Position numbers and translations under genes: made by a program. A stretch of 64,000 nucleotides of DNA from Sphingobium sp. TKS (lineage in GTDB: Bacteria; Pseudomonadota; Alphaproteobacteria; Sphingomonadales; Sphingomonadaceae). Positions 6,408 through 8,817 of this stretch are shown here, piece by piece (the first letter of the stretch is position 1; every line of letters begins with the position of its first letter). The DNA is taken from positions 1,801,001 through 1,865,000 of the forward strand of contig NZ_CP005083.1 of assembly GCF_001563265.1 (NCBI RefSeq), written 5' to 3'. A model generated the notes under the pieces. The model saw only the letters and a program-made list of their open reading frames with translations, ran no database searches and was not told the origin of the DNA.

Positions 6408-6566
6408 GAATCAGTCCCCTTTCAGCCATTTTGGCGTCGTGGGACCGGCTATGGGTGCGTCATGACGGATCGGTGACGCTTTGGTAACAGTTCAAAGTGT
6501 GGGGAAATGTAAGGTTTCCAGCACAGCCTGCCGCCCTTACAGTTGCGGCGACGGTCGGACATGAGG

Positions 6567-6721
6567 GCTGAGAGTCTGTTTGGAAATGCGCGGAAGAGCG
6601 CATTTCGGGCACCGCACCAGCCCTCTCCCCCACCCGGCCACCCAACGGCAGTATCATATGGGTGGCCAGGTGGGGGAGAGGGCTGGTGCGGCTATGCGCC
6701 CAAAGGCGCATTTCCAAACAG
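6567..6721. repeat. REP-like long palindrome, right end interrupted by an IS110 element
   Basis: The left arm (6567-6591, beginning GCTGAGAGTCTGTTTGG) pairs with the right arm at 6706-6721 and then, across the insertion sequence, with ACTCTCAGC at 8115-8123. The inner part is also symmetric: GCACCAGCCCTCTCCCCCACC near 6612 pairs with the GGTGGGGGAGAGGGCTGGTGC segment near 6668. Rejoining the flanks at the shared AG restores an almost perfect 165-bp hairpin. The rest of 6408-6566 holds only the upstream region of the TonB receptor; I see no gene in it. Confidence 0.8.
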
Positions 6722-6825
6722 ATGGGGTGATTGGGGCTCACCACCGAGTCGGTGGGGTGGCTGCTCCTCGCAGATGGTAAGACGTGGTCCGTATCGAGCG
6801 GCCACAACCATGAGGAGGAGCAACC

Positions 6826-7863
6826 ATGCGCCATTATGCCGGACTGGATGTATCGTTGGAAGAGACGGCGATCTGCATTGTCGATGACACGGGCAAAGTG
6901 ATCCGTGAGCTTCGTGCCGCCAGTGACCCCGATGCACTGGTCGAGACGTTGACCGCTACCGGTCTGAGCTTCGAGCGCGTTGGTCTGGAGGCATGCTCGC
7001 TGTCATCGTGGCTGCATCAGGGTCTGACGCGCGCGGGCCTCCCGGCACTGTGCATCGAAACGCGAGCGGCCAAAGCGGCAATGGGTGCGATGCCCAACAA
7101 GACCGACCGTAACGACGCCCGTGGTCTGGCTCAGATCATCCGCACTGGTTGGTATCGCGTGGTCCACGTGAAGAGCATGCCGTGCCGATCGGCCCGCGCG
7201 CTGCTCGGTGCACGCCGGACGATGTTGAATAAGCAGCGCGACATCGAGAACGCGGTGAGGGCCGTACTCCGCGAGGTCGGACTCAAGCTAGGAACACCGC
7301 CGCGCAAGCTCTTCGCCGGCCTGGTCCGCGAACTCGCGTCAGTCGACCCTGCCATCTCCGACATCATCGAGCCGCTGCTTGCGGTGCTCGATGTGATGGT
7401 GCGCCAGATCGAGCATTTGACGAAGCGCGTGCTGGAAGCGGTCAGGGTTGAGCCGATATGCCGACGGCTGATGACGGTGCCAGGTGTGGGGCCGCTGACC
7501 GCGCTCACCTTCCGGGCGACGGTCGATCTGCCCGAGCGCTTCCGACGATCCCGCGACGTCGGCGCTCATCTCGGGCTCACGCCCCGTCGCTACCAGTCTG
7601 GCGAAACGGATGTCCAAGGCCGCATCAGCCGATGTGGCGACGAACTCGCCCGTACCGCGTTGTACGAGGCGGCGCATACTCTGCTGACGCGCTGCCAGAA
7701 ATGGTCGACGCTAAAGGCGTGGGGTATGCGCCTTGCCCAGCGGCGCGGCATGGCTAAAGCCCGCGTCGCCGTGGCTCGCAAGCTTGCCGTCATCTTGCAC
7801 CGTATGTGGAGCGATGAGGCCGAGTTCCGCTGGGGTAAGTCACCGACGTTCACAGCAGCATGA
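6826..7863 (+). CDS. IS110-family transposase (DEDD/serine recombinase)
   Basis: A 345-residue RNA-guided recombinase. The N-terminal RuvC-like domain carries the DEDD set at D8 (GLDVS), E55 (GLEAC), D94 and D97 (KTDRND). The C-terminal Transposase_20 domain (about 210-300) has the helix-hairpin-helix-like VPGVGPLTA, and Ser258 in the QSGETD motif is the expected nucleophile. Both catalytic sets are intact and the length is normal (about 340). GAGGAG 8 bases upstream is a strong ribosome binding site. It is the only gene of the element. Confidence 0.95.
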   Translation: MRHYAGLDVSLEETAICIVDDTGKVIRELRAASDPDALVETLTATGLSFERVGLEACSLSSWLHQGLTRAGLPALCIETRAAKAAMGAMPNKTDRNDARGLAQIIRTGWYRVVHVKSMPCRSARALLGARRTMLNKQRDIENAVRAVLREVGLKLGTPPRKLFAGLVRELASVDPAISDIIEPLLAVLDVMVRQIEHLTKRVLEAVRVEPICRRLMTVPGVGPLTALTFRATVDLPERFRRSRDVGAHLGLTPRRYQSGETDVQGRISRCGDELARTALYEAAHTLLTRCQKWSTLKAWGMRLAQRRGMAKARVAVARKLAVILHRMWSDEAEFRWGKSPTFTAA

Positions 7864-7880
7864 GGAGACACAAACCAGTT

Positions 7881-8064
7881 CCCGCCTGAAGAGACGGGTA
7901 GCGGTCGTTCCCATGGGGACGATGGGCGGAATGACCTCGTTGAGAGTCCGGATTCTCGGCTTTGCCGAAGGTCGCGAAACAGCTTGAGGCATCCCGCTCT
8001 CCTGACCCCATTATGCGGCAGCCCAGCGCTGACCGCGGAGAGAAGCGAGTGATCCATGGGAACG
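7881..8064 (+). ncRNA. Candidate bridge RNA (seekRNA) of the IS110 element
   Basis: The 3' non-coding region of the element contains a 5' hairpin (CCCG/CGGG at 7881-7898) and a long-range 11-bp helix (CGTTCCCATGG 7906-7916 with 8054-8064). Between these lie two loops built like the target- and donor-binding loops of IS621. Loop 1: GAGAGTC (7942-7948), a TCGGC/GCCGA hairpin, then AAACAG (7977-7982). These match the target flanks on the two sides of the core. Loop 2: ACCCCAT (8005-8011), a GCGGCAGC hairpin (8015-8036), then AGAGAAG (8039-8045). These match the element's own left and right ends. Exact 5' and 3' ends are not known. Confidence 0.8.
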
Positions 8065-8139
8065 GTCACGAATACGAGGAAACAGCTTGACCCAAAACGC
8101 CCCAATCAGAGAAGACTCTCAGCATTGGGAGCCTGAGCA

Positions 8140-8817
8140 TTGCAAATTCTGGTGGTAGAGGACGATCCCGATCTGCGCCTGTTCATCGAAAATGGCCTGC
8201 GCCGCGCCGGGCATGCGGTGCACGGCGTGACGAGCGCCGAACAGGCGGCAACTGATGTCGGGAAACAGGCTTTCGACGCCGTGATTCTCGACCGGATGCT
8301 GCCGGGCATGACTGGGCTGGATCTGGTGCGGCAGTGGCGCAGACGGGGTGAGCGGGTGCCGGTGCTGCTGCTGACCGCGCTCGACGGCATCGATGACCGG
8401 GTGGAGGGTCTGGAGGCGGGAGCGGACGATCATGTCGGCAAGCCTTTCGCCATGAACGAACTGCTGGCGCGGCTTCAGGCCATCACGCGCCGCGCCCATG
8501 TGCCCGATCCCGGTTCCCGGATCGAGGAGGGGGAACTCGTCCTTGACCTGATGCGGCGGGATTTGCGCTACAAGGGACGGCTTGTGGCGCTCCAGCCGCG
8601 CGAGATGCGGCTGCTGGAGGAACTGATGCGCCATTCCGGCGAACCGGTGACCCGCGCCATGCTGCTGGAACGGGTCTGGGGCTTCACCTTCAATCCGCAG
8701 ACCAGCATCGTTGAAACCCATATCAGCCGGTTGCGCTCGAAACTCAGCGACAGCGGCGTGCCCGCCAGCATCGAATCCGTGCGCGGTGTCGGCTACAGGC
8801 TGGCCATGCATGGCTAA
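8140..8817 (+). CDS. OmpR/PhoB-family response regulator
   Basis: A 225-residue DNA-binding regulator. The receiver domain spans about 1-115, with acidic pocket ED(D) at residues 7-9, phosphoacceptor Asp51 (ILDRMLPG) and Lys101 (GKPF). The winged-helix output domain (about 130-222) ends in the usual VRGVGYRL. The start is TTG at 8140: an in-frame stop lies just upstream, no ATG fits, and GGGAG sits 7 bases before. It overlaps the kinase gene by 8 bases. The IS110 element ends 27 bases upstream and may have displaced the native promoter. Probable targets are the adjacent TonB-receptor or efflux genes (inference). Confidence 0.9.
   Translation: MQILVVEDDPDLRLFIENGLRRAGHAVHGVTSAEQAATDVGKQAFDAVILDRMLPGMTGLDLVRQWRRRGERVPVLLLTALDGIDDRVEGLEAGADDHVGKPFAMNELLARLQAITRRAHVPDPGSRIEEGELVLDLMRRDLRYKGRLVALQPREMRLLEELMRHSGEPVTRAMLLERVWGFTFNPQTSIVETHISRLRSKLSDSGVPASIESVRGVGYRLAMHG

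Follow-up and report, generated by a model that had tools for sequence, protein, structure and literature searches.

The window, a stretch of 64,000 nucleotides from Sphingobium sp. TKS (NZ_CP005083.1, positions 1,801,001 to 1,865,000 of the forward strand), carries an insertion sequence of the IS1111 group on its plus strand at 6722..8114. The element is 1393 bp long and delimited by a left-end motif and a subterminal repeat; its span becomes 6720-8112 if the AG core is assigned to the left rather than to the right. The gene at 6826..7863 (+) encodes a DEDD transposase of 345 aa with the domains PF01548 and PF02371, both of the IS110 family. As a DEDD transposase with a Transposase_20 domain, within the length range of 330-350 aa, the protein agrees with the IS1111 group, and so does the motif GLTPRRYQSG at residue 250, which follows the IS1111 pattern GL-P----S(t)G (PMC11187229, available in part). 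Motifs and an alignment with IS621 place the DEDD residues at D8, E55, D94 and D97. When the transposase was searched against PDB sequences, the top matches were the transposases of IS621 (E 2.5e-13) and ISCro4 (E 1.1e-12), followed by a weaker match to TasH and by RuvA at E 0.87.

The left subterminal inverted repeat GTGATTGGGGC (6727..6737, +) is complementary at 10 of 11 positions to its right partner GCCCCAATCAG (8099..8109, +). The IS1111 group is marked by subterminal repeats of about 11-13 bp and by terminal extensions that are asymmetric; in our reading, which assigns the AG core to the left, the extensions here measure 7 bp on the left and 3 bp on the right. A further mark, a long non-coding region that follows the transposase gene, is found here at 7864-8114. 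The genome carries three copies of the element at equivalent sites, namely that of the window, one identical copy and one with two differences. All three share the left flank CCAAACAG, and their right flanks ACTCTCAG, ACCCTTAG and ACTCTTAG are similar. No relatives of the element were found in the viral contigs scanned.

Four segments of the non-coding region correspond to the surroundings of the element and to its own ends. On the left side the flank AAACAG (6716-6721) precedes the left end ATGGGGT (6722-6728), and on the right side the right end AGAGAAG (8108-8114) is followed by the flank ACTCTCAGC from 8115. The right-target or top-strand guide GTTGAGAGTC (7939..7948, +) pairs with 8114-8123 at 9.5/10, G-U pairs counting half, while the left-target or bottom-strand guide AAACAG (7977..7982, +) equals the left flank at 6/6. 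The left-donor guide ACCCCAT (8005..8011, +) pairs with the left end at 7/7, and the right-donor guide AGAGAAG (8039..8045, +) equals the right end, likewise at 7/7. Among 3000 dinucleotide shuffles of the non-coding region, these scores were reached by 6, 186, 53 and 149 for right-target, left-target, left-donor and right-donor, respectively, and all four jointly by none. The segments and their matches had been proposed in an earlier sequence-only reading, which also judged a chance match of all four unlikely; both proposals stand. AAACAG is the weakest of the four segments and recurs at 8080-8085 in the right end.

That reading had further described the order of the two loops, target before donor, as IS621-like. 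In the target loop, the top-strand guide comes before the bottom-strand guide, which is the order reported for IS1111 seekRNAs and the reverse of that reported for IS110-type elements (PMC11187229). The order is no proof of the strand, because an RNA from the other strand shows the same order by symmetry.

Fold and strand of the putative RNA

The putative bridge RNA or seekRNA was modelled at 7904..8073 on the adopted plus strand, limits that are those of the stretch modelled and not necessarily those of the transcript. The consensus fold of 22 sequences from clade 1, the clade of the window element, comprises 51 pairs in four helices, with 94.7% of cells forming pairs, and 18 pairs are changed on both sides in a compensatory manner. 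The covariation score of the fold was 0.257 compared with 0.165 in shuffles, none of 500 reaching it, and further pair types were matched by 11 of 500; the consensus structure was derived from the same alignment on which this covariation was scored. When the fold was slid along the alignment, paired cells fell to 36-43%. The window RNA alone is somewhat more stable than its shuffles (z -2.0, 7 of 200 equally good). The two target guides are separated by the hairpin of helix 3 (7947..7977, +) and the two donor guides by the GC-rich hairpin of helix 4 (8015..8036, +), so that the hairpin earlier suspected within each guide pair is present in the consensus fold for both. The guides lie in loops of this conserved structure, with most of their bases unpaired and single edge bases paired.

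A model of the RNA, R1, detected it in 34 of 34 further loci (E <=0.00054) in a search that covered 35 sources, a part of the loci collected, with one extra match each in L105 and L102. In the genome of the window R1 matches six places, comprising the three copies and three places beside distant IS1111 relatives on contig 2. These relatives (443725-444991, 478839-480062 and 503561-504799) share 41-44% identity, and their ends were not callable.

The evidence on the strand is divided. Wobble-type mismatches of one guide favour the plus strand (30 versus 15) and those of the other favour the minus strand (15 versus 32). G-U cells in the pairs common to the folds of both strands number 22 versus 17, and the consensus folding energy over 24 sequences is -66.0 kcal/mol for plus and -56.9 kcal/mol for minus. 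The plus strand is adopted here as the presumed one, on the precedent of IS1111 elements.

A search of Rfam over 6500-8300, up to an E-value of 5, returned 17 matches, all under the gathering score. One was an ALIL pseudoknot within the transposase gene and the other 16 were miRNA families on 6606-6695, and none was retained as a candidate. The segment 6606-6695 is a long, near-perfect hairpin of a miniature element (MITE), and the miRNA-family matches are most likely an artefact of this palindrome.

Covariation of the guides with flanks and ends

Relatives were drawn from 73 loci of a genome-contig collection, 14 plasmid regions and further genome samples, in which matches occurred in 18 of 199, 19 of 396 and 9 of 385 genomes; the three samples overlapped, used different E-value limits and each included the genome of the window. 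Among the resulting 140 loci, 137 had a transposase match and 69 of these had callable ends, the remaining 68 being partial, truncated or of other end types. Score and flank rules left 60 elements, removal of identical flanks 56, and the presence of an anchor motif 51. Ends were called by the left-end motif and repeat pairing, with guides and flanks not used. An automatic search for subterminal repeats was dropped, and the above procedure adopted, because it picked unlikely repeats at many loci.

The match of each RNA to its own flanks and ends was compared with that to permuted ones in 20,000 permutations. In the unanchored test, which scans the whole non-coding region (n=56), the own score was reached by 128 permutations for the left-target guide and by none for the other three guides, and four controls were null. 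In the anchored test (n=51), no permutation reached the own score for any of the four guides, either globally (z of 9.1 for left-target, 12.3 for right-target, 8.0 for left-donor and 8.4 for right-donor) or within clades (7.0, 9.5, 5.6 and 5.6, respectively). The anchored zones, placed on a conserved motif, were chosen after the alignments had been inspected, and the unanchored run serves as the check on that choice. Of six global controls, that of the left flank with the wrong zone fell below expectation (z -3.7) and the others ranged from z 0.0 to 1.6; the within-clade values of the six ranged from -1.1 to 1.3. Own flanks and ends thus outscore swapped ones for all four guides, a positive result for the covariation check on relatives that the sequence-only reading had proposed.

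The signal differs among clades. Clade 3 (n=24) gave 0 of 20,000 for all four guides, and clade 1 (n=21), whose targets are similar, gave 20 of 20,000 for left-target and a modest signal, 414 of 20,000, for right-target. No signal was detected within clade 2 alone (n=6, one target type). The members of clade 2 (L060, L061, L062, L068, L095 and L098, mostly Rhodobacteraceae) share a single target type, with CTCGTTGAG or CTCGTTCAG on the left. Thinning to one element per cluster of 80%, 70% and 60% identity retained 34, 18 and 9 elements, for which the own score was reached by 0, 0 and 4 of 20,000 permutations for left-target and by 0, 0 and 2 for right-target. Of three thinned controls, one, the complement of the right end, was reached in 350 of 20,000 at 34 clusters and was null at 18 and 9. 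At the level of single elements, right-target fits of at least 7/8 occur in 27 of 51 own pairs and in 7.8% of swapped pairs, and left-target fits of at least 7/8 in 18 of 51 and 4.7%; at a threshold of 7.5 the left-target values are 1 of 51 and 1.2%. Many single elements, such as L130, L051, L053 and L059, fit poorly. Covariation and shuffles together indicate a bipartite target guide that fits both target strands.

One locus illustrates how the target guides change. L131, on a Sphingobium plasmid, has a transposase 81% identical to that of the window and carries GCAGTGAGTC and GCTCAG in place of GTTGAGAGTC and AAACAG; its flanks are AAGATCAG and GACTCATTG. Against its own flanks the L131 RNA reaches 8.5/9 and 6.5/8, compared with 7/9 and 5.5/8 against the flanks of the window element. 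For the window RNA the values are 8.5/9 and 7/8 with its own flanks, compared with 6.0/9 and 4.5/8 with those of L131. The donor guides of the two are identical. L131 is a case of natural retargeting, both target guides having changed in step with its flanks.

As to the donor loop, the left ends of the 51 elements show eight different pentamers. The best-fitting RNA window complements the whole pentamer in 29 of 30 elements with ATGGG, five of eight with ATGCC, both with ATGCG, one of two with ATGAC and the single one with ATGGA, and it matches four of five bases in six elements with ATGGC, one with ATCCG and one with ATCCC. These counts are descriptive, the best window having been picked for each element, and the permutations constitute the test. 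The bipartite donor guide that fits the joined ends of the element is a finding of covariation. Some clade-1 right ends, those of L048, L051, L052, L053 and L132 included, read AGAGAGG, compared with AGAGAAG in the donor guide and in other copies, so that the two junctions of a single copy do not agree in the first core base.

These donor matches bear on what kind of RNA is at hand. The RNA may act as a seekRNA only, in which case it would pick the target, the protein would recognise the ends by way of the subterminal repeats, and the donor matches would go unused. A short seekRNA is enough for the transposition of ISEc11, and the part that binds the IS ends is stated there as unknown (PMC11187229, in its available part). 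Nevertheless, donor guides track the ends, with 0 of 20,000 permutations within clades and at 34 and 18 clusters for both guides, and with 142 for left-donor and 19 for right-donor at nine clusters. The donor evidence is weaker than that from the target flanks because RNA and ends are co-inherited. A seekRNA-only role is considered unlikely. The RNA of the IS1111 group is probably a full bridge RNA whose loop 2 is a programmable donor guide that coevolves with the terminal extensions, and clade 1 would comprise hyperparasites whose guides track IS5-type ends. If true, donor-guide coevolution would explain the asymmetric, lineage-specific terminal extensions. The result bears on the open disagreement between the seekRNA and bridge-RNA accounts.

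The interrupted target

The left part of the target, at 6572..6721, looks like an IS5-type MITE with the terminal repeat GAGTCTGTTTGGAAATGCGC that the element has interrupted; its opposite end agrees at 18 of 18 positions, and empty copies exist in the genome. What remains of the target on the right, at 8115..8121, is ACTC, which would be the MITE end, followed by TCA. The left side carries TGA (6569-6571), so the duplication is unequal. Within two mismatches, the 15-base terminal repeat occurs at 10 places in 6.2 Mb, compared with 2 for a reversed control. One empty copy reads TCA-GAGTCTGTTTGGAAA...TTTCCAAACAGACTC-TCA, and equal triplets also flank another place (TAA/TAA) and copy c2 (TTA/TTA). 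The TGA and TCA of the window thus differ from the equal 3-bp TNA duplications at two empty copies and at c2. A TNA duplication is typical of an IS5 subgroup.

IS5-type transposase genes adjoin many relatives in clade 1. In a search of up to 200 bp, 13 of 27 clade-1 elements had such a gene, at a distance of 8-92 bp, and none of the 42 other elements did. Five of those 13 supplied the IS5 queries, leaving an independent count of 8 of 22, in which L059 and L076 share flanks, and the 27 include near-duplicates and L022, whose ends are doubtful. The opposite end of the presumed host element was sought in six plasmid regions selected for an adjoining IS5-type gene. It was found with equal triplets in L166 and L167, in L171 as the third-ranked candidate only, and with unequal triplets in L170, while none was found in L169, the retargeted element. 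In L168 the opposite end is taken by a second, inverted IS1111-type copy. This region of a plasmid of Mesorhizobium sp. L-2-11 contains one IS5-family element with an IS1111-type element in each end, at 1-600 and 1501-2927, in opposite orientations. The double insertion fits targeting of the terminal repeat.

The sequence-only reading had called the target a REP, which would make it a REP-like palindrome of the chromosome and not the end of an IS5-type element. The target is indeed a long palindrome flanked in the window by unequal triplets, and IS110-family elements are known in REPs (PMC1525189, available in part). Yet a REP would be expected as a high-copy palindrome, and 10 places in 6.2 Mb, together with the equal TCA/TCA and TAA/TAA triplets at empty copies and the IS5-type transposase genes beside 13 of 27 clade-1 elements, render a REP-like target quite improbable. 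The end of an IS5-type element or MITE is the better reading of the target; if it is correct, the ends of some mobile elements serve as the target of another.

Known systems and proposed mechanism

The anatomy of the element, its copies at equivalent sites, the conserved fold and the covariation of guides with flanks and ends point to one reading, that the region after the transposase gene encodes the bridge RNA or seekRNA of an IS1111-group element with two bipartite guides. We assign this a probability of roughly 85-90%, and the positive covariation of all four guides supports the bridge-RNA interpretation proposed earlier. Matches are short, AAACAG is common in shuffles, and RNA and ends are inherited together, but it is hardly credible that the matches arose by chance or through shared descent, with the conserved region serving some other role; that view is contradicted by the anchored and thinned covariation tests, by target flanks that come from separate insertion sites, are not inherited with the RNA and yet fit, and by wrong-strand, wrong-zone and outer-flank controls that are null or below expectation apart from the one at 34 clusters.

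RNAs of this kind have recently been described. Siddiquee et al. (2024) demonstrated seekRNAs and natural redirection. In Durrant et al. (2024), 93.0% of IS1111 entries received a predicted bridge RNA, and the covariation analysis in the available part of that paper was made on the IS110 group, with six diverse elements inspected by hand (PMC11208160). The predicted bridge RNAs drawn there for six elements include that of ISAzs32 from Azospirillum sp. B510 (Extended Data Fig. 10). ISAzs32 is 70.1% identical in DNA to the window element over 97%, shares its left end, right-target guide and donor guides, and has an almost identical right end, and its flanks TCGGACAG and GCTCTCAG fit the target type of the window; it differs in its left-target guide (AGACAG versus AAACAG) and in its length (1603 versus 1393 bp). 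The earlier suggestion that the RNA is undescribed therefore cannot be kept for its kind, which was published with ISAzs32.

Other known systems share parts of this arrangement. ISEc11, ISPa11, ISKpn4 and ISPst6 likewise have the RNA downstream of the transposase gene, the top-strand guide first and natural redirection, whereas their targets are others and donor recognition is not assigned to the RNA in the available part of the source (PMC11187229). The bridge RNA of IS621 also has two bipartite guides, for target and donor, and a CT core on one strand; unlike the window element, IS621 belongs to the IS110 group, with the RNA in the left end, the opposite guide order and subterminal repeats of 2-3 bp (PMC11208160). 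The IS1111 elements IS4321 and IS5075 resemble the window element in that the terminal inverted repeats of other mobile elements are their insertion sites, but these target elements are Tn21-type transposons and not IS5-type. The literature covered, subscription papers and preprints aside, yielded no account of IS5-type ends as a target of IS1111 elements and none of donor-guide covariation across IS1111. The mechanism itself is already known; the additions made here are, mainly, the quantitative covariation of the donor loop across IS1111 and, further, the IS5-end target. For alphaproteobacteria, the locus adds a natural example of RNA-guided insertion that is well supported, with both loops tested statistically across IS1111 elements.

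By analogy with published IS110 and IS1111 work, we infer transcription of the RNA, its strand, its complex with the transposase, and the excision and insertion of the element. The second guide pair (8005-8011 and 8039-8045) would base-pair with the two ends of the element once joined. With this RNA, the DEDD transposase would excise the element as a circle and then insert it at CAG^ACTC-TNA, around an AG core that reads CT on the opposite strand, within the terminal inverted repeat of an IS5-type insertion sequence or MITE.

The motif TTGAC at 8087..8091 (+) may be the -35 box of a promoter at the circle junction. In 49 of 51 elements its first base lies 27 or 28 bp from the right end. In the circle it would set a weak -10-like sequence, GAAG|AT, across the junction, and such a promoter would drive both the transposase gene and the RNA. 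The sequence AAACAGCTTGA is present twice, at 7977-7987 and at 8080-8090, and the latter copy overlaps TTGAC near the right end. The resemblance of this copy to a guide is perhaps coincidence, because it reads GCAGCTTGA in many relatives.
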